DNA of 64,000 nucleotides from Aldrovandia affinis (Eukaryota > Chordata > Actinopteri > Notacanthiformes > Halosauridae): NCBI GenBank assembly GCA_029706075.1, contig JAINUG010000261.1, positions 491,807 through 555,806 of the forward strand. The letters run 5' to 3'. Position numbers and translations under genes: made by a program. The notes beneath the pieces are model-generated. The model made no database searches and was not told the origin of the DNA. It saw only the letters and a program-made list of their open reading frames with translations. This document shows, in pieces, positions 11,860 to 58,803 of this stretch (positions within the stretch are counted from its first letter, which is position 1; each line of letters starts with the position of its first letter).

Positions 11860-15252
<3,393 letters not shown>

Positions 15253-15300: not shown

Positions 15301-15403
15301 GACAAGCGGCCACAGTTCGTGGTTCGATGAGATACAAAGGATCACGAAGAACGTTCCGATGTAAGAACGTATTCAGTAACCAATTTATACAGGTGGGGGT
15401 GTG

Positions 15404-17290
15404 TATATACACCGATCAGCCACAACATTAAAACCACTGACAGGTGAAGTGAATAACATTGATCATCTCGTTACAATGGCACCTGTCAAGGGTTGGGATA
15501 TATTAGGCAGCAAGTGAACAGTCAGTTCTTGAAGTTGATGTGTTGGAAGCAGGAAAAATGGGCAAGCGTAAGGATCTGAGCAACTTTGACAAGGGCCAAA
15601 TTGTGATGGCTAGACGACTGGGTCAGAGCATAAAATAATGTAACCTTTAACTTTTACCTTTTTAACAGCAAATGTTCACATTTCCTTTTATTTTTTTAAA
15701 ATTTTTGTTTTTATTTATTTATTTAATTTTATATCTAGAACCTTAATTTGTTTCTGTTGTGTTTTGTCTTTGTATTGGTAAATGTACCATCAGGATTGCC
15801 ACTCAATTTCGTTGTACTCTGTGCAATGACAATAAAAGAAATCTAAATCTAAATCTAAATCTCCAAAACGGCAGGTCTTGCGGGGTGTTCCCGGTATGCA
15901 GTGGTTAGTACCTACTAAAAGTGGTCCAAGGAAGGACAACCGGTGAACCGGCGACAGGGTCATGGGCGCCCAAGGCTCATTGATGTGCGTGGGGAGCGAA
16001 GGCTAGCCAGTCTGGTCCGATCCCGCAGAAGAGCTACTGTAGCACAGATTGCTGAAAAAGTTAATGCTGGCTATGATAGAAAGGTGTCAGAACATACAAT
16101 GCATCGCAGCTTGCTGCGTAAGGGGCTGCATAGCCACAGACCGGTCAGAGTTAGCAATATTATCAAGAAGTTTGCTGCTTTTGGAATTGTTAAGAATCTC
16201 CCAGGACGTGGTGGTAAGAGGAAAATTGATCTCAGATGTCGTTGAAGGATGGTGTGAGCTATTGAAAAAACACCTCGTATGACATCCAAAGATCTCAAGG
16301 CTGACCCGGAGAGGTCTGGGGTAATCGTTTCAGCCTGTACCATACACTGGACACTGAACCAAGAAGGGCTTTACGGTCGGAGGCCAAGGAAGACCCCACT
16401 GCTGAAAGAGAAACACAAGAAGGCCCCATTAATCATTGCCAAGACCCACCTAAGCAAGCCTAAATCCCTCTGGGAAATTTTTCTCTGGACCAATTAAACC
16501 AAATTAGAGATCTTTGGCAATGCAGACCAGCGCTTTGTTTACAGACAACAAAATGAAGCTTTTAAAGAAATTAACACCCTACCTACAGTCAAATATGGTG
16601 GAGGTTCCATAATGCTGTGGGGCTGCCTCTGGTATAGGATGCCTTGAACGTATTAAGGGCAGAAGGAAATCAGAGGATTATCAAGGCATTTTGGAGCAAA
16701 ATGTGCTACCCAGTGTCAGAATACTGGGTGTCAGTTGAAGGTCATGGGTCCTCCAGCAGGACAATGACCCAAGACACGCATCCAAAAGCAAGATAAAACA
16801 TTGGACTGTTCTGGAGTGGCCAGCACTGAGTCCTGATCTCAATCCTATTGAACACCTGTGGAGAGATCTGAAAACAGCAGTTGGGAGAAGGCACCCTTGA
16901 AATCTGGGAGAACTGGAGCAGTTTGCAAAAGTTGATTGGGCCAAACTGCCAGTAGAGAGGTGTAGGAATCTCATTAATGGCTATAGGAAGCGCTTGATTA
17001 CAGTTATTTTCTCTGAAGGCTGGCTACCAAATATTAAATCTAGGGTGTCAATAATTTTGTCAATGCCATTTATGTTTATTTTATGATTTAAAAAGGATAT
17101 GTTAAAAACAAAGTTCTGAATAAAATAAAAAAACAAAGTTTCGTCCATCCATCCATCCATCTTTAACAGTGAAATAAAGAAGCAGGAGACCAAATACTTT
17201 TGTCAATTTCAACTTATCTTACAGCGTGTCCTTTTTTGAAAAACCTCACCAAGGAGGCGTCCAGGTGCCAATATTTTTGGCCATGAGTTT
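15404..17290 (+). mobile_element. composite of two Tc1-like transposons
   Basis: The left part, from about 15,404 to 16,148, begins with the terminal sequence of a common teleost Tc1-like family (CACCGATCAGCCACAACATT) and codes the start of its transposase (helix-turn-helix part near 15,943-16,148). Within a few bases of 16,149 the sequence becomes a different Tc1 family. That second part holds a broken transposase (GLYGRRPRKTPLLKEKHKKA, VKYGGGSIMLWGC) and a right end at about 17,240-17,290 (CCAATATTTTTGGCCA). The 3' half of the first element and the left end of the second are missing. Stops and frame shifts show that it is dead. It begins about 130 bases upstream of the rpl11 transcription start region. 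Confidence 0.8.
15631..15861 (+). mobile_element. retroposon 3' end inserted in the Tc1-like element
   Basis: Sequence foreign to the transposon interrupts its frame between GGGTCAGAGCA and CCAAAACGGCAGG. It is AT-rich, contains GTTGTACTCTGTGCAATGAC, and ends in a short ATCTAA tandem tail after AATAAAAGAA. That is the form of a truncated non-LTR retroposon 3' end. The family is not identified. Confidence 0.65.
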
Positions 17291-19508: not shown

Positions 19509-22221
19509 CTATCGGACTAAAAAAGCAACAACCAAGAGGAAACAAAATACCAGCGCTACTATCGATGCTATGATCCTCGCTCGAGAAAAACCTCCCTGGG
19601 TGCATGGTTCTGGATGTGGAGTGATGGGGTTGAGAGTGAGTGGCGGAGCAGGACTGGGCAGCTGCAGGAGAGGCAGTCCCTGCTTCTTCTGCTCCTCCAG
19701 CGCCCTCTGCAGGAAGATCAATGCTTTGCGTGGAAAGGCAGGGGCAGCGAAGAGGTTGCAGCCCGGAATGAAGAAGTGGGGGAGGCTGCCACTGCAGGCG
19801 TGGCCCTCCAGGGCCAACAGAAGTGTCATGAAGCAGGAGGCTAGGTTGTGGGGAGCCCACTGGGAGTCATTGCCACGGATGGAGAGGGTGTGCAGGAAGG
19901 TTGTCTTCCCATGGTATGAACAGAGACGCTCCAACGCCTCAGGGAATTGTACCTTCAGTCCCTCTATTAGACATTTCAAGAGCATGAGACACCTCTTTCT
20001 GAGGGAAAAACACAGGCGAGGGAAAAGGGGACAGGATACTGAGCCTTGCTCATCAGACAAAAGCAGCCCCCCAAGTCAGTGGTATTTTATATTGTGGTTA
20101 TTACAACTTTTCAGGCAGAAAGAAGTCTGTCGCAAGACGAAAAGCCCACCGGCAGCATTTGCTGGCATAGCCCTCGCAGCAGGTCCTGGACTGGCCATGG
20201 TTCTTGATGATTTCCTTTTCAATATGAGAGAATGAAATCCTCCAGCTCTCTGGTGGTACACACACAGGCAGTTACAATTACCCGCAGACAGTTAGAATCA
20301 CACACAGACAGTTAAGGCCCATTTCCACCGGGAATGGTAATTACAACCATAACGAGAAAATATAAATCTTTTGCTCGCATCCGCACCAGAGAAAGTTTAA
20401 CAGACCTGTTAATCAGCACTTCCCGCGAGTACAGCCGGTGCACAGCAGCGTTTGGCTAGATATGCTTCATTGTTGAATTGTTCTGCAGTGGATAGCAGCC
20501 TCACAGCAAGAGGTCCCGAAAAAATGTTCTCCCCGTGTCCGCGTGGGTTTCCTCCAGTTTCCTCCCACAGTTGTTCTAGTCTAAAGATTGATTAGTGAAG
20601 TTATTGGTTACAGTGCAGACACTTTAATTAATTTGAATGGATGGATGGATGGATGTTCAATGACCCAAAAAAGGCTTTCAGTATTGTTCTAGAAGATTAT
20701 TATAGTTATTGTTACAGTGCAGACACTTTAATTAATTTGAATGAGTTATCATTCCCAGTTGAATTGAAATTGGGCCTTTACAGTCACACAGAGACAATCG
20801 CACACAGTGGCTGCCCATTGTGCTTTGTCCCCAACTGCACGTACCCTTAGCGGCATCGCTGAGATTGCGTCCCGCTGGTTTTTTGGGTACAAAGTAGAAG
20901 GCCTGGCTGGTGAGGTCACGGCGCGTCTTCTTGCCCAGCCAGTTATCCACCTTCAGGCCAGTGCGGGCAGCAAGCGGCCAGCTTTGTGATCTGGGTACCT
21001 CCAGTGCGGGAACTACGTCCAGCGACAGCAGTTCCTCCACTGCCTCGTCAGCCTCTGTCTCCTTCCACATTAGTGTCAGGGTCACCGCTGGCGAACTGGG
21101 ACGCTTCCTATTTAGTACCCAGCGACTGGCCTCATCAGGGACTGATGGACCGAGGAACAGTCAGACAGAGAGACACAGAGTGTGGCCAGGGCAAGAGTAC
21201 ACAAAGAGGCCCTCATGCCACAAAATGCACATCCGAGGGCATTTTTTAAAGACTGATAATCAAAAACAAATGAAATTAGATTCAATTTAAAAGAGAAAGT
21301 GCATGGCTGCTAAAAGTGTTCCAGTCCAGGCCCACTTATGCGGCGTGTGTCCCCAGAATTTGACTGACCTTTGTAGGTGCTGATGAACTTTTTGACCAGG
21401 CTACGCATTTCCTTGAGGATTCTGGTGGCAGAGATTGTGAGCTCATCGTCCAGCAGGAAGGCCCGGATCTCACTACGAGTGGGCCGGGTCAGGGAGACAC
21501 TGTAATGCACCCCGTGGTACTCCTCCAGCTCTGTCCAGGTTAGCCGTGGGGTCGGCAGCAGCAGCATCATGTCAAACTCATTCGGCTCATTTATCTGCAG
21601 CAGAGGGGATAGCAGGCCATTGTGGGTTACAGCAACAACAACAAAAAGTACCCTGTGCCGGCCAGAAGAGGATGGGCTCCCCCCCTTTTAGTCTGGTTCC
21701 TCCCAAGGTTTCTCCCTACCAAGGGAGTTTTTCCTTGCCACTGTTGCCTTTAGGCTTGCTTTTGGGGGGGTATAGGCCTGGGTTCCCCCTCTGTTAAGCG
21801 TTTTGTGACAATTCAATTGTAAAAAGCGCTATACAAATACATTTGATTTCATTTGATTTGACATAAGACCTAGGGAGACCCGATTGGATCCCTTCCTACA
21901 CTGAAGGCTCACCTTCACCATTTCATAGTAGCTGCCACTGTTCAGCACTGTGACAGATCTAAAGGCCGGCTGTTCACTGTTCTTCAGATAGTCCAGGAGT
22001 TTCTCTCGGAAGTGATTCACCAGCTTGGCAGACCGCTGCCGGTCGGTCCGACGCAAGCCGAGATGCTTGACCTGCTGTTTGATCCGTTGGATGACGGCTG
22101 AAGGCACCACAGGGAAGTTCTCCTCGATGTTGCATACACCAGCTGGGGTGGGGATGGAGGGCTCTGAGCCACTGTTTACCCTCCTCAATGCAAATTTTTT
22201 CTGGGGAGTAGTTCTGTTCAT
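19509..22221 (-). CDS. cgas: cyclic GMP-AMP synthase with C-terminal membrane segment
   Basis: cGAS makes 2'3'-cGAMP from ATP and GTP on binding DNA and activates STING. Exons on the minus strand are 21,913-22,221, 21,369-21,594, 20,845-21,141, 20,150-20,249 and 19,509-19,998, all in phase, giving 473 residues. Visible are the nucleotidyltransferase GS motif (G96-S97 in LNSGSYYE), the metal ligands E109 and D111 (NEFD), the third acidic residue D220 (SLDVVPALE), and the zinc thumb H295-C301-C302-C309 with the same spacing as human cGAS. That thumb separates cGAS from other Mab21 proteins. Two things are odd. The N-terminus before the catalytic core is only about 40 residues, against about 160 in human. 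After the family's usual end there is a proline-rich linker and a predicted transmembrane helix at about 453-472, followed by one Arg. An acceptor at 22,226-22,227 leaves room for an upstream exon. Confidence 0.9.
20484..20572 (+). repeat. V-SINE/DANA-like fragment in cgas intron 3
   Basis: This is an internally deleted relative of the SINE at 18,244-18,591, in the opposite orientation. It keeps GCAGTGGATAGCAGCCTCAC from the head and the CGTGGGTTTCCTCC core, and most of the region between is lost. A short GGAT tract follows at about 20,638-20,654. Confidence 0.7.
21646..21861 (+). mobile_element. LINE-like 3' end in cgas intron 1
   Basis: The segment carries the widespread teleost retroposon 3' sequence (GGTTCCTCCCAAGGTTTCTC, GGGAGTTTTTCCTTGCCACT, AAAAAGCGCTATACAAATAC) and ends in a short ATTTGATTTC-type repeat. 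It is antisense to cgas and lies wholly within the intron between the first two coding exons. Only the 3' end is present, as is usual for 5'-truncated non-LTR insertions. Confidence 0.7.
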
Positions 22222-25905: not shown

Positions 25906-31031
<5,126 letters not shown>

Positions 31032-32049
31032 TTATTTACTATTTAAGAAAAAAAACTACAGGTATGAATAGATACTGCTAGCTCCGAACGGGAGCAATCC
31101 AGTTCCATAACGGAATATTTAACTAGCGCAATGCAGCCACTTTGGGAAACATGAGCTAGCGAACGTTAGCGCGAATTTAAAACATTACCAGTTAGCTCGC
31201 TATACATCGAGCCAGGGGGAAGTCGGTAGTCGCCTGCATTTAATCCATGCAACCATTTTAGCATTTGTGTAGTAGTTTATTGCGCAGCGCGTGCCCGCCC
31301 CTACACTCCTCCCTCTATGCCCTCCATGTTGAGCTGGTTTGAGACGGTTATCCGGCCATGTTGTTGAGAGCAACCAACCAGATAGCAACATAGCTCCGTA
31401 GACCGGGGCACAGTCCGACCGGAACTGAGCGAACCTCAGCCACTCGCAGTATTGCTTCAGATCAGAGTAATGCTGTAACACCGTCATTTAAAATGCCAGG
31501 ATTATGCCCGAAGTACGCTTGCAGGCAAATATAGCGATCATTGTTAGCAAAGTAGCAACCGCAACTCCTCCCCTCCCCCCATTCTATCCCGTCAGCATGA
31601 TTTGACATTCCGTGACTCATTGAAACGAGCCAGACAGATCTCCACGTACGAACGGCGTTTAAGTGTCACGACTAAAGGACGTGGACAGTCCAATCTTTAA
31701 ATCTGTAGGATGGATGGATTCGGGTAGCCAAAGTTTATACGGGGCTGAGGTTCACTGAGAATATCCAGCGTTAACGTTACGAGTTAAACCCTGATCACGT
31801 CGTTATCTAGCAATGTCGCATGACACTCCCTGTTACCGGTCAGGCAGCGAACGACATTTTTACATGGTCTGTCACTGATCCACATTTTCCCCGCTCACGT
31901 CCAATGTCAAGGTCCTTCTAATCTCGAATTAGCAGGGGCCACCCAGAACGCCGCAAAATGCCAGAAATTCCACGTACCATTCAATCGGTGCCTGTCCAAA
32001 TTACATGCGTAGAATATGGCTACAAACCTGCAGAAAGTGATAACAGCAG

Positions 32050-32106
32050 TTACCCCTGGATCAGACCGGAGAAAGGACAGAAATTGGTTTCACATCGCAT
32101 TTTATA
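32050..32106 (-). promoter_or_regulatory. eef1a copy A core promoter and untranslated exon 1
   Basis: On the minus strand TATAAAA lies at 32,100-32,106. About 25-30 bases further is a TOP-like CCTTTCTCC (near 32,076), then a short exon ending at 32,054 before a GTAACT donor. The matching acceptor is at 31,056-31,057. TATA plus TOP is the known layout of vertebrate EEF1A1. Confidence 0.6.
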
Positions 32107-32474
32107 CCGGCAGGGTGGGGGGCGGGAGAACCTGTCAGTTTGGACCCCGTGCTTAGAACGCAAGATCGACGGGTACCATTGGCTGCTTCAGCACAAACCC
32201 CCCCTGTCGATTGGTTGGCAAAAAAATAAAATGACAGGGCACAGAACGTCAGTGGCAGCTGCAGCCAGGGGGACAACACGTGGTCGAACAAGCACAAAAG
32301 ATTAAGAGTCATTTACAGGGGCATTGCCTCCTCACTACAGACTGAACCCCCCCCCCCAAACCTCCTGAATGTTGCAAAGATTCAGTGCAACTGCATCCAC
32401 AGCTGAACACGTATCAATGTCAGTCAGTAGGGAAAGAGGAAACAAGTATTGAATGATCAAGAAATTCAAAGACC

Positions 32475-32480
32475 TTTATT
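32475..32480 (-). promoter_or_regulatory. eef1a copy B polyadenylation signal
   Basis: AATAAA on the minus strand, about 276 bases after the copy B stop codon and about 370 bases before the TATA box of copy A. It marks how tightly the tandem genes are packed. Confidence 0.65.
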
Positions 32481-32755
32481 AGTCAACAGCAGCTTCTTTC
32501 AAATCCAATAAGTGTGACATGTCAAACAGGTGCAGCTTCCCAACCATCTCAACTGAAATTTAAAGTGAAAGAGGCACTGTCACTCAATTTATGAAGCCAC
32601 ATGGCATCCATTTTTCTTGTTCTTTTCCTGCGGAAATTTTTGCGATGAGTTTTGATCAGCATTAGCCAGTCCTTTAGGAGGGAGCTCAGGTTCTGAGAAA
32701 AGGTGGAATGGGGCGCTGCAGACCCCAGGACCTGAGAGACTGGGGGGCAAGGAAT

Positions 32756-35590
<2,835 letters not shown>

Positions 35591-36327
35591 GGTTACTTAG
35601 TTACGTTTCTACAATGAACAAGTTAAACCGTTAGCTTTGTCAAGCGGATTTACAGCAAGTCGTCAAGTGCCAATCAAACCCATTTCAACTATTAAACAGC
35701 CATGAATAAGGCAAGCCCCAATATCTCAAATTGTGTGCTATACCATAGGGAAACTAGTCTAAAGTCACTTGCTGTAAGAGCTAGGACTATTGCGCGGTAC
35801 TGGGCCTCGGCTTCTGCTCGGGCCGGGAGCCAACACGACACGTGTTACTTAAGGCCACGTCGTATTAAGTTACAGCAAGATTCCCCAAACGACCACAACA
35901 CCTAGATTCACTTCTGGGAGCAGTTGTTTGGGATGAGGGATCACGAGAAGAATCCAGTTTCCTCGGACTGTAGGCCCGATCTCCTCGGCAAACTCCTTTG
36001 TTCTTCCTACAAATCCCCTCCCCCATCACTAGTTCCACAACGCGTCAAAAAGTTACAAATTTCTTGATTACATTTAGAAAAAGCCGAACGTACGAAAACA
36101 CGTAAAAAAAATTGGCTATGTATCGTTCAAAAGTGTGCGCTTACTGGGAAGGCAACCCAACTTGGTAGGTATTGATCTTGTTTCATGGAGTGGTACATCC
36201 ATTGTTGTAGAAAAATATGCTGTAGATTCTAATCTACAAGCAAGCAGATTTTTCTTTTCAAAAAAGAAAACTCGAAAAGGACCTTCCATCTGAACAGAAC
36301 CAAAAAAAAGAAAAGCGAAATACCTAC

Positions 36328-47679: not shown

Positions 47680-49807
47680 ATACAGTGGGTATAATAAGTA
47701 GTCTGTTTTTTATTTGTAATTAGTTAACAAAAAGCTTTAGAGGTTTATTTTTATTTGACATTATAGAGTATTTTGTATTGATCAGTGGCAGTAATCCGCA
47801 ACTCTCAAAACCCCAAGACCCTCTTTGCCACCATTAACTCTTTAATCAGCCCCCCCTCTAGCACTAGCCTGGATGTGTCTCCAACAAAATGTGAGGAATT
47901 TTTAAAATTCTTCATCAACAAAGTTGAGGACATCAGAAGTAATATCACACCACCTGCATGTAGCCTAGATGTCTCACCGCTCTGCTCATCCAACCTGGCC
48001 TGTTTTCAACCTATCTCTCTCTGCTCTCACAGATATAGTCTCAGCTATGAAACCGACCACCTGCCCCCTTGATATAGTTCCCTCTGCTCTTCTGAAAGAA
48101 GTATTTCACAACTGGCCCCAGCATCCTCTCTATCATTAACACCTCCCTAGTCACTGGTACCGTTCCAACCTGCTTCAGACATGCAGTGGTCCAGCCCCTT
48201 CTGAAAAAACCCAACCTAGACGTCACCCAGCTCAATAACTACAGGCCAATCTCCAAGCTCCCATTTCTGTCAAAGGTCCTTGAAAAGGTTGTTCTCTCCC
48301 AGCTGTCTCCCTACCTGCACTTGAATAACATCTTGGATACATTTCAGTCAGGCTTTAGAGCCAACCACAGCACAGAGTCTGCCCTGCTCAAGGTCACCAA
48401 TGACCTGCTTCTCACTACTGACAACCGCGACTGTGCTGTCCTTATGCTCCTAGACCTTAGTGCAGCCTTCGATACGATAGACCATAACATCCTTATCGAT
48501 CGTCTCTGCCAGGCAGTTGGTGTCAGTGGCACAGCTCTATCTTGGTTCACCTCCTACCTCAGTGATAGAAGCTTCTCTGTTAATATCGGCAATTGCTCCT
48601 CCCCCTCCGCCTCTCTCTCTTGCGGGGTCCCACAAGGCTCCATCCTTGGCCCTATTCTATTCTCTCTGTATATGCTGCCCCTTGGTTTAGTCATTCAGAA
48701 ACACAACATCTCTTTCCATTGTTATGCCGACGACACTCAGGTCTATCTCCCCATGAAACCCAATGACAAGTCCAGTGTTGACAGCCTCCGATCCTGTCTA
48801 GATGACATCAAATGCTGGATGGCACAAAATTTCTTACAACTCAACGAGTCTAAATGTGAAATCCTCCTTTTCGGCCCCCAAACAAAACCAGTGTGATGGC
48901 CAGCAGCCTGGGTAACCTGTCTGTCCTAGTTCAGCCCTTTGTTAAAAACCTGGGCGTGTTCTTCGACCCTGAATTTCACTTTGACAGGCAGGTGAACTCG
49001 GTGGTGAAGGGATGTTTCTTCCAGCTCCGGACCATAGCTAAGATTAAGGCCATTCTCTCCCCTCAGACCTTGAAAGAGTCATTCATGCCTTCATATCATC
49101 ACGACTTGATTATTGTAACTCTCTGTACCTGGGGCTTAATAAGTCGACCATGGCCCGCCTACAGCTACCCCACAACGCTGCTGCTAGATTGCTCACAGGT
49201 ACTCGGAAGAGAGCTCATATCACCCCTGTCCTTGCCTCCCTTCATTGGCTCCCAGTACGCTATAGGATAGATTTTAAAGTTATTTTATTTGTCTACAAAG
49301 CTCTAAATGGTAAGGCCCCCTCCTACCTAGCAGACCTCCTCACCCCTATACCAACGTCAGGGCCCTCAGATCTGCTGATAAGGGTCTCCTAACCACCCGT
49401 AAGTCCAACCTCAAGTCTAGGGGGGGGCGTGCTTTTGCTGTCGCGGCCCCTGACCTCTGGAACAGCATCCCCATGTCCATCAGATTTGCCCCTCCATCGA
49501 GTCCTTTAAATCTAAGCTCAAAACCCACTTGTATTCCTTAGCGTTCCCGACTCACACTGACTCCTGCCTTGTTTGTTCTGTTCCTTTGTATGTCTGTTGG
49601 TTGTTTATTTTCTGTTTATTTTTACCCTTAGTCTACCTGTATTGTAAAGCACTTTGGTTGACGAGCGTCATGTTAAATGTGCTATATAAATAAAATTTGA
49701 TTGATTGATTGAGTAAATGCCAACGAAATCAATTTTGATTCCATTAAGTACAAAAATAAAATGTGAAAAATGCCAAAGAGAGCGAATAGTTTTTATACCC
49801 ACTGTAT
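47680..49807. mobile_element. terminal-inverted-repeat element split by a LINE
   Basis: ATACAGTGGGTATAATAA at about 47,680 is matched in reverse complement by TTTTATACCCACTGTAT at 49,790-49,807. The ends resemble those of short Tc1/mariner-related elements in fish. Almost all of the interior is the LINE at 47,787-49,710, so the LINE inserted into a small non-autonomous element. Confidence 0.6.
47787..49710 (+). mobile_element. L2-like LINE, 5'-truncated and frameshifted
   Basis: The open frame 48,186-48,893 codes a non-LTR reverse transcriptase: [17 protein letters not shown], the [12 protein letters not shown] block with its catalytic Asp, [17 protein letters not shown], and the YADD active site in CYADDTQVY. 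Pieces of the region before it (47,785-48,060) and of the C-terminal part (48,893-49,390) sit in other frames, so the copy is inactive. The 3' end has a CTATATAAATAAAATTTGAT segment and a GATT tandem tail, typical of L2-clade elements. Family assignment to L2 rather than a relative such as Rex1 is by eye. Confidence 0.8.
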
Positions 49808-56500: not shown

Positions 56501-57140
56501 ATAGTTAGCGCACGAGATCAGTGCAGTAATACAGCAATAGACATCATTGCAGGCATCTGCGTACCATACCTGTAACACCGGGAAGGAATTGGTAAGGTTA
56601 GTGATTATTATTATTTTTGTAACTTTTTTTTTGTGAAAGTTTTGAAAGGACATTGGTTTTGTCTTGGGGCTGCTGACAGTTTTGGTCCTCTTTGGAAAAT
56701 TCCTGAACAGGTATTTGGTTAGTGACATTTGGAAAACGACCTGCTGTTGAGTTACAAGGTCCAGTTCGGGACGCTGCCTGAGAGCTTCTCCAGGCCCCAC
56801 TATTTTTTTTTCATATACTATTTTTGGGTTGCAGTATTCACAAATGAGGAATTGTGCACACAAACTGACTTCCAGGAAAAAGGAAGACCAAGCCAAGACG
56901 TAGCTTGTTACGAGGCCTGAGGACTGGGCTCACCAAGAGAGAAGGTGTGCAGTGGAAATCATCAGATTGGGTGAGTGGCCTACCCCTTATGATGTTGGGA
57001 CTGCCTCACTCACTAAGTGCCTGCGGTTTTCTTTTGTTTACACTCACACACCTCACAGATATACAATACTAGGTCACGCTCAGCTCTACCCTGAAAACTA
57101 GTGTTAGGGATGGGGTTGAGTTGTAACAGTGTGTGTGTAT

Positions 57141-57214
<74 letters not shown>

Positions 57215-58803
57215 ACGCGTGAATGTATGCAAGTGTGTGGTGCGTGCGCTGGTACGCGTGTCCTCACCGCAGCAGTAGAAGACTGCCGGCCAGCCCAAAG
57301 TATGGCAGATGAAGGCTGTGAGTGGTAGAGCTATAAAGGCGCCAAAGTTTGCCCCCGCTCCTGAAAAGGTCATGAGGCGCGATCTCTCCAGGGGCGGAGC
57401 CCAGCGAGCCCACATCGCCATCATCGCTGGGAACGTCACTCCCTGATAGGTGCACATTAACACGCAGGCAAAGTTACATGCAACACATGCAATTCCAACT
57501 CATTCCGAAACAGTGAACTCCACATTAATAGGTATGCATACACCCTCCCAACACTGCTCTTACCTCCCCGAAGCCTTCCAGAGCTCGCAGGGCAAAGAGC
57601 CAGCTGGCCCCCATCTCAGCAGCCAATGGGGTTAGGAGGGTGAGGGCTGCTGTGCTCACAACCCCCCACCCAGGAAGATCCGCCCCCCGAGATGCCCCGC
57701 CAGGTAACCCCCTGGTATCTGGGTCAGCAGGTACCCAAAGAAGAACGCCCCTAAAAGGAACCCCTGGGTGGCAGAGTCCCATGAGTACTGCGGGATCTGA
57801 GAGATGGAGACGGAAAGAGAGACAGAGGACGAGGGAAGGAGAACGAAGGTGAGGGATGGAGAAACTTTTGACATCCCCTCCTTTGCTTAGAAAGTATGAA
57901 CGGTTTCTCAGATTAGGAGTGCCATTTTGTAAATGTATTTGTGTGCGTGTGTTTGAGAAGTGCTCCTCACCCAGTCTGGCTGCTCTGGATTGTTGCTTCC
58001 ATTACCTAATGTGGACGGGGTGACCGGACACTCCTGCAATGAGGAATTGTTGGTGGACGGCTGACCACTGGTGTTGTTGACCATGGCGACCATGGCAACG
58101 CTTAGGTTGACCCGTAGTCCATAGACCACGGCGAAGCCAAAGAACATCAAGATAGCCAGGTTGCAGCGAGCGGAGCAGCACTGACGGGGTGCTTCAGTGC
58201 GTGACACAAACACAGTTGACAAACACAGTTGACACTGAGCATGATAACCACAGCCATAACCATAAACATTACAACGGACGTGCTCCCACCACTAAAATAA
58301 CTATAAAAATGACCTTCAATAATAATGATAGCTGTGATAATCACAGTGTTTTTTTACACAGCCATCCAATGATGTCATACATGTAACAAAACAATCTTTT
58401 TGTTTGCTATTTTAAAGGCCGACATGGAAGTCGTGAAGAAGATTGAAATTAAAAGTGTCTTTCAAAACATGCGACTGCTGGCAAACGGTGAATCATTTTC
58501 ATCGTGGTTTACTGTTATCATAAACATTCTCAGTGCAACTGGGCCTATGCATTAAGACAATCTCACTGAAGAATCAATGGGAAAGGATAAAAGGTGGTAT
58601 GTTTGACCCATGCTGACATAACCTTAAACACACATCCGTAGAACCGTACTGGGACCCGCAGAGTGATGAACACAATGTGAGCCGACACACTAACACAGGG
58701 ACATACCTGTCTGCTCCTTCACCTTCTCCTTCAGGAGGGGTGTGGCTTCATCATCGTGGTCATCCAGAGGGGAGTTAATGGAATGGCCCTGGTACAATGC
58801 CAT
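50565..58803 (-). CDS. slc17a5: sialin-type lysosomal transporter (SLC17A5-like)
   Basis: Sialin exports sialic acid from lysosomes with protons. Exons on the minus strand are 58,707-58,803, 57,971-58,191, 57,564-57,796, 57,268-57,442, 55,455-55,573, 55,153-55,314, 54,459-54,591, 51,689-51,836, 50,883-50,973 and 50,565-50,744, about 519 residues. Family landmarks are the N-terminal acidic dileucine signal (EATPLL), LRVNLSVA after the first membrane helix (the Arg mutated in Salla disease), [18 protein letters not shown] and [20 protein letters not shown]. The start chosen is MALYQGH; the frame is open further upstream. Exon 3 has a frame break in a G run (57,662-57,671), where one base is missing relative to the expected 234. 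Intron 7 has a GC donor. The motif FPAMHAMW reads FPAMMAMW here. The C-terminal tail is longer than in human. It may be a paralogue. Confidence 0.9.
52535..53290. other. GC-rich foreign-looking block in slc17a5 intron 7
   Basis: About 750 bases of clearly higher GC and CpG content are set in an AT-rich intron. No intact open frame is present and no family was recognised on either strand. The sharp change in composition suggests an inserted element or a decayed retroelement internal region. Confidence 0.4.
55982..56290 (+). mobile_element. tRNA-derived SINE in slc17a5 intron 4
   Basis: The + strand has an A-box-like GGTAGCGTAGCGGTCTACGC and a B-box-like GGTTCAAAACC, then a unique body (GAGCTCGCCAATAAGCGCAA) and an A-rich end (AAATTGGGAGAGAAACGGGG). 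It is oriented opposite to the host gene and does not reach an exon. Confidence 0.75.
56411..56475 (-). repeat. SINE tail fragment
   Basis: This is the tail domain GCATTTAGCAGACGCTCTTA with its leading ACATTT repeats, followed by sequence not shared with the complete copies. It lies inside slc17a5 intron 4. Confidence 0.6.
57128..57211. repeat. (TG)n microsatellite
   Basis: Two (GT)n tracts are separated by TTGTGTTT, about 84 bases in total, inside slc17a5 intron 4 close to the exon that begins at 57,268. Confidence 0.95.

Follow-up and report, generated by a model that had tools for sequence, protein, structure and literature searches.

We strongly predict, from conserved sequence features, that ray-finned fish possess a cGAS paralogue that carries a membrane anchor at its C-terminus. 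cGAS is regarded as an enzyme of the cytosol or the nucleus, and its place in the cell is seen as a limit on its activity. If the prediction is true, a conserved and naturally membrane-built cGAS raises the question of whether a DNA sensor fixed at the membrane of STING works and discriminates self. The gene described here belongs to the halosaur Aldrovandia affinis and lies in a window of 64,000 nucleotides (the whole stretch of DNA analyzed; contig JAINUG010000261.1, positions 491,807 to 555,806). For the tailed paralogue we coined the name cGAS-TA in this analysis. We are fairly confident that it represents a second vertebrate cGAS paralogue beside a tail-less form and that its product is a tail-anchored membrane protein, presumably of the endoplasmic reticulum (ER) and with the catalytic head in the cytosol.

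The halosaur gene: core, linker and predicted anchor

The gene occupies the minus strand of the window and was modeled with five exons; the borders are GT-AG, and no join interrupts the reading frame. Start and stop codons included, it covers 2,713 bases. In a database search, the spliced product of 473 aa matched an annotated A. affinis protein, AAFF_G00196280 (P0001), at 100% identity over its full length. Exon 1 (21913..22221, minus strand like all exons), which agrees between the splice model and annotated P0001, holds the start codon, a 45-residue N-terminus and the first core helices. Exon 2 (21369..21594) encodes the catalytic residues E109 and D111 within the motif NEFDMM, exon 3 (20845..21141) the catalytic D220, and exon 4 (20150..20249) the zinc thumb residues H295, C301, C302 and C309. 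The C-terminal lobe, linker, anchor and stop codon all fall into exon 5 (19509..19998). The start codon is plausible because the proteins of Albula and Megalops open with almost the same residues (the region M[N/D]RTTPQ is near-identical in both).

The core has the features of a vertebrate cGAS. Pfam recognizes Mab-21 (PF03281, 7.2e-36) and the HhH/H2TH-like Mab-21_C domain (PF20266, 1.3e-21), and human cGAS is the closest match to the AlphaFold model of the protein (Foldseek E 1.8e-31). E109, D111 and D220 as well as H295, C301, C302 and C309 align with the catalytic and zinc residues of the mouse enzyme. Among the 128 listed fish sequences of the tailed lineage described below, the catalytic E and first D are present in 126 (two gaps) and the second D in all 128; the zinc H and first two C are found in 128/128 and the last C in 127/128 (one gap). 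Catalytic acids and zinc ligands are thus unchanged in every listed sequence that covers them. By its domains, its catalytic E/D/D and its H-C-C-C thumb the window protein is a vertebrate cGAS at the level of sequence, for which DNA-dependent 2'3'-cGAMP synthesis is predicted. Mammalian cGAS (CGAS/MB21D1) has the Mab-21 fold, the catalytic triad and the thumb in common with cGAS-TA. It ends at the core (...FPIFDKL and similar), unlike cGAS-TA with its 51-residue linker and anchor, and its N-terminus is long compared to the 45 aa of cGAS-TA. The preliminary description of this DNA had called the N-terminus nearly absent. It is indeed short (the median is 58 residues and the range 0-153 among 120 fish), but it is not absent and still contains basic residues.

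The best cGAS chain in the PDB aligns with residues 46-422, and as this match ends at 421/422, 51 residues extend beyond the usual end of the family. The last exon had been described as running on into a proline-rich linker and a hydrophobic stretch followed by one Arg and the stop, in one frame with an intact core. Both parts of this description are borne out: the run-on is present in frame at 19509-19998, and the three catalytic and four zinc residues listed above precede it in the same frame. The linker comprises residues 423-452 (19575..19664, minus strand), of which 431-450 have low AlphaFold confidence (block means of 66 for 431-440 and 56 for 441-450, against a mean pLDDT of 86.9 for the protein). 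The predicted anchor comprises residues 453-472 (19515..19574, minus strand) and lies inside a helix that AlphaFold places at 450-472 (block means 89-96).

We used the KD, Hessa and Eisenberg scales. The 20-residue hydrophobic segment of P0001 reaches a KD19 peak of 3.21, compared to a core maximum of 1.28, and on the summed insertion (biological) scale the tail scores -5.47 versus +4.6 for the best core stretch. Membrane insertion of the tail is therefore strongly predicted, and the hydropathy scales used support the absence of a second membrane-spanning stretch. A single residue follows the 20-residue segment, which lies within the approximately 30 residues expected of tail-anchored proteins, and hydropathy predicts neither an N-terminal signal nor an extra transmembrane segment in P0001. 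We also estimated how often such a tail arises by chance. The window contains 503 open 51-codon stretches that run to a stop; 14 of them had KD19≥1.8 in the last 29 aa, and 37 had it in the last 51. At the rate of 14/503 a tail in a single genome is suggestive but not proof.

Distribution of the tail and a second, tail-less cGAS

Three protein searches listed the best 120 of 351, of 593 and of 261 matches, respectively. Of the 296 different proteins obtained in this way, 128 belong to ray-finned fish of the tailed lineage and 168 to amniotes, represented by mammals, birds and crocodilians. Unnamed proteins from short contigs were assigned to fish or amniotes by sequence. Sharks, coelacanth, lungfish, amphibians, lizards and turtles were not among the matches listed. 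One of the three lists was made with a short query and is biased to short proteins, long mammalian and fish proteins falling outside its length window; many of its bird entries are labeled partial and may have cut ends. Entries that do not carry this label, for example P0218 and P0290, have the same end point.

Among the ray-finned fish listed, sturgeon and gar included, 124/128 have a tail, defined as KD19≥1.8 within the C-terminal 75 residues. None of the 168 listed amniote proteins reached a KD19 of 1.6, the maximum being 1.32. The preliminary description had proposed a search of other teleost cGAS proteins for the same tail and had named its absence from the nearest relatives, together with frame decay, as evidence against an anchor. 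Instead, the tail proved to be common among the listed ray-finned fish, and we rejected the idea that it is peculiar to A. affinis. Its occurrence in 124 of the 128 also excludes chance or decay of the 3' end as its source. The tail is missing from four models, namely P0006 (Synaphobranchus), P0050 (Siganus), P0228 (Diretmus) and P0180 (Polyodon). The Polyodon model stops before the C-terminal lobe, which leaves 124/127 among the models that reach the end; the other three may reflect annotation errors or true loss.

We searched the 1.22-Gb A. affinis assembly with the last exon and obtained the window gene and one more site, C2156:1373328-1373690. In the gene at this site (1368000-1373690, plus strand), exons following the five-exon plan of the window gene can be connected without a break in the frame, and the product ends with FPIFRDCS and the stop, which is the end point of mammalian cGAS. 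It shares the spacing of the zinc thumb and 43.6% core identity with the window protein. Unlike cGAS-TA it has no tail, its N-terminus comprises about 70 residues before the core as counted from the first in-frame Met (more if the start is upstream, since the open frame of exon 1 extends as far as the joined piece does), and it is closer to amniotes, with a core identity of 45.7-49.2% to four amniote proteins as opposed to 38.5-41.4% for the window protein. The window gene can consequently no longer be regarded as simply 'the' fish cGAS, as the preliminary description had done, because the same genome encodes a second, tail-less cGAS of the mammalian type. The genome search that revealed the tail-less copy also led us to drop the idea that a tail is a general property of fish cGAS.

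The relationship of the two copies was analyzed using an unrooted FastTree of 172 sequences, which contained the 128 fish, a subset of 43 from the 168 amniotes and the one tail-less fish protein. The tailed fish, including sturgeon and gar, form a clade with a local support of 0.99. The tail-less A. affinis protein lies outside this clade, attached to the branch that connects the amniotes with the tailed fish. The tree shows that the duplication took place before sturgeon, gar and teleosts diverged. Judged in this way, the window gene is an ancient, predicted tail-anchored paralogue that exists in addition to the mammal-type cGAS. Neither its identity to amniotes nor its gene neighborhood fits a one-to-one orthologue of human CGAS, for which the tail-less gene is the better match by both comparisons.

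On one side, the tailed gene is flanked by two apparent eEF1A genes in tandem at 27347..35596 (minus strand; pieces 27347-28961 and 33999-35596 with Pfam GTP_EFTU/GTP_EFTU_D2, and eEF1A1 at 1.1e-47 for one piece) and by exons of a sialin-like transporter (SLC17A) at 57107..58291 (minus strand; MFS_1, Sialin 2.5e-13). On the other side are a gene at 11885-15250 (minus strand) that we take to be RPL11 and a piece of Elongin A (L011:4140-4559, minus strand). Two mobile elements were also noticed in the window. Between RPL11 and the cGAS gene, 15400-17100 (plus strand) holds what we recognized by eye as presumably a decayed Tc1/mariner-like transposase, and a reverse-transcriptase ORF fragment (RVT_1, 4.5e-35), probably from a LINE, is located at 48096-48893 (plus strand). 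Near the tail-less gene are a piece of a helicase that most resembles DDX53 (DDX43/53-like), a sialin-like gene and an eEF1A gene, which shares 84-90% identity with that of the window over three exon pieces. This neighborhood resembles human 6q13, where the order is DDX43-CGAS-MTO1-EEF1A1-SLC17A5. RPL11 and Elongin A are neighbors at human 1p36, which hints at an old 6q13/1p36 paralogous block. The two cGAS loci have the appearance of an ancient block duplication.

We speculate that early vertebrates had two cGAS genes divided by place, a soluble/chromatin form and an ER-membrane form, the latter giving fish a sensor fixed at the membrane of STING. The arguments for and against this scenario seem to us evenly balanced. 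Its second part, which might equally well prove right or wrong, is that amniotes and fish kept the soluble/chromatin form and ray-finned fish kept the ER form, which would be represented by none of the amniotes sampled. Somewhat doubtful, if still a serious possibility, is that the tail did not already belong to one of two early vertebrate cGAS genes and was gained on the stem of ray-finned fish after the duplication. Every tailed sequence found does come from ray-finned fish, and they are monophyletic with the support given above. However, sturgeon and gar already carry the tail, the single tail-less fish protein is not part of the tailed clade, and eEF1A and sialin-like genes adjoin each of the two copies, as expected of an old block duplication. 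These observations bear on the duplication and not on the age of the tail itself.

Function, location and published fish cGAS proteins

According to the mechanism we propose, the helix would be inserted post-translationally and leave the catalytic head on the cytosolic face of a membrane, most likely that of the ER. Held there, cGAS-TA might sense cytosolic or organelle-associated DNA and produce its cyclic dinucleotide at the very membrane in which STING resides; the tail-less paralogue would act as the soluble/chromatin form. Messenger synthesis close to STING at the membrane and direct binding of STING as a brake both fit such an arrangement; the retained catalytic residues favor an enzyme.

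We regard it as rather unlikely that cGAS-TA is mainly a negative regulator which is held at the ER and, by direct binding to STING, acts as a competitor of the tail-less sensor. Two papers report that grass carp cGASL/cGASb binds STING and lowers the interferon response, cGASa having the opposite effect (PMC7582293; PMC11264591), and the grass carp protein P0070, named 'Cyclic GMP-AMP synthase-like protein', is tailed and a candidate for cGASL/cGASb. On the other hand, the unchanged catalytic acids of the tailed lineage suggest that enzyme activity is selected, and the regulatory role does not track the tail, as the reported negative regulator of grouper most likely belongs to the tail-less kind.

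The grouper protein EccGAS is described as having no transmembrane region, as residing partly at the ER and mitochondria, and as binding STING (PMC9945316), and it is found with STING at the ER in a second report (PMC11264591). We translated the grouper primers and siRNAs in the frames that fit cGAS and found that RVSFSH, AVTLTT, MPYYL and TDWSA occur in 0/128 of the listed tailed-lineage sequences. In addition, the Mab-21 domain, given as 258-564, reaches the end of a 1695-base ORF equivalent to 564 codons and a stop (the paper writes 575 amino acids). From the primer translations and the domain map we conclude that EccGAS is most likely the tail-less paralogue. An ER location therefore need not depend on a tail, and we do not count the co-localization at the ER as support for the anchor. 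A truncated zebrafish cGAS, which may be either paralogue, is reported to make cGAMP (PMC6981698). Conflicting studies of fish 'cGAS' as activator or inhibitor may arise because two old paralogues share one name, and the tail alone does not sort these reports. Among the papers listed in searches of an open-licence library, none was seen to describe a transmembrane tail at the C-terminus of fish cGAS, though papers on zebrafish and grass carp cgasa/cgasb may do so; within the reach of these searches, the tailed paralogue is apparently undescribed.

Mitochondrial tail anchors are expected to have a basic C-terminal flank. Past the best 18-residue segment, 71/124 tails have no basic residue, 44/124 (A. 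affinis included) have one and 9/124 have two or more. Because a second basic residue after the helix is absent from most tails, we favor the ER; that it is most likely the ER and not the mitochondrial outer membrane is read from tail charge alone, and the A. affinis tail itself ends in Arg. An anchor that is real but directed to the mitochondrial outer membrane, or to several membranes, where cGAS-TA would guard mitochondrial DNA or adjoin MAVS, appears improbable to us. It would be consistent with this Arg and with the basic residues past the helix in the other tails that have them, and the C-terminus of MAVS provides a precedent for anchoring in this membrane (PMC6723221), but the basic flank is missing from the majority of tails.

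The preliminary description had considered that the tail might keep cGAS near STING or away from nuclear DNA. If cGAS-TA is held at the ER as we predict, the anchor might have replaced binding to nucleosomes. In mammals, two arginines of cGAS are the contacts to the nucleosome acidic patch. These positions are R in 113/128 and 108/128 of the listed tailed-lineage sequences, so that the anchor as a substitute for nucleosome binding is unsupported and contact with chromatin, for example in mitosis, may still occur.

Other proteins combine some of these features. TREX1, which has an unrelated nuclease fold, differs from cGAS-TA in that it removes DNA and does not signal. Both are enzymes of cytosolic DNA in the same pathway and have a C-terminal hold on a membrane, TREX1 being described as a tail-anchored DNase of the ER (PMC11904002; ER also in PMC11373327). 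MAVS resembles cGAS-TA as an innate-immune protein with a C-terminal membrane helix, but is a CARD adaptor on mitochondria and not an enzyme (PMC6723221). The cGLRs of animals are members of the same superfamily and are known to have acquired added domains, namely ANK and TPR; a C-terminal anchor is not mentioned in the available text of the source (PMC9980059). In contrast to them, cGAS-TA is a vertebrate cGAS with a zinc thumb.

Conserved hydrophobicity of the predicted anchor

We compared the anchor with the core in pairs of 118 fish and found a median identity of 25% for the anchor (best of 11 offsets) versus 60% for the core. When drift from the real codons to 25% identity was simulated, KD19≥1.8 was kept in only 19% of 1000 runs, in a test that leaves out relatedness among the fish. 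As hydrophobicity has nevertheless been held at about 25% anchor identity, it is the property and not the sequence of the anchor that looks to be under selection. In the first 120 fish, the core reached KD19≥1.6 in one protein only and the median summed insertion score was +8.7 for the core versus -1.9 for the tail, the tail scoring <0 in 102/120 and <2 in 117/120. Some anchors are weak, with a charged residue inside 42/124 of the best 18-residue segments. This segment is followed by no more than 10 residues in 121/124 tails. The 124 anchors have a mean hydrophobicity of 0.81 and a mean hydrophobic moment of 0.13, which is too low for an amphipathic surface helix, a possibility that we rejected on this basis.

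Fourteen fish proteins are represented by short contigs alone (1,182-2,228 bases), and all 14 have core and tail in one frame. Being shorter than the 2,713-base gene in the window, these contigs, whose source 'lgn' we take to be assembled public reads, look like spliced transcripts; all come from fish other than A. affinis. We therefore give very little credence to a misread 3' end, in which annotation that overran the real stop, or a splice that was missed, would hide a mature protein that has no anchor: a tail in one genome is not very improbable (14/503) and 4/128 listed models lack it, but in A. affinis it shares its exon and a single open frame with the C-terminal lobe and is followed by a stop right after the helix, and its presence in 124/128 listed fish and all 14 short-contig proteins as well as the hydrophobicity held at about 25% identity argue strongly against such an error.

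A further feature concerns the start of the linker. Directly after the core a motif resembling GLPLLxPPAP is conserved, 98/120 fish matching a loose pattern.
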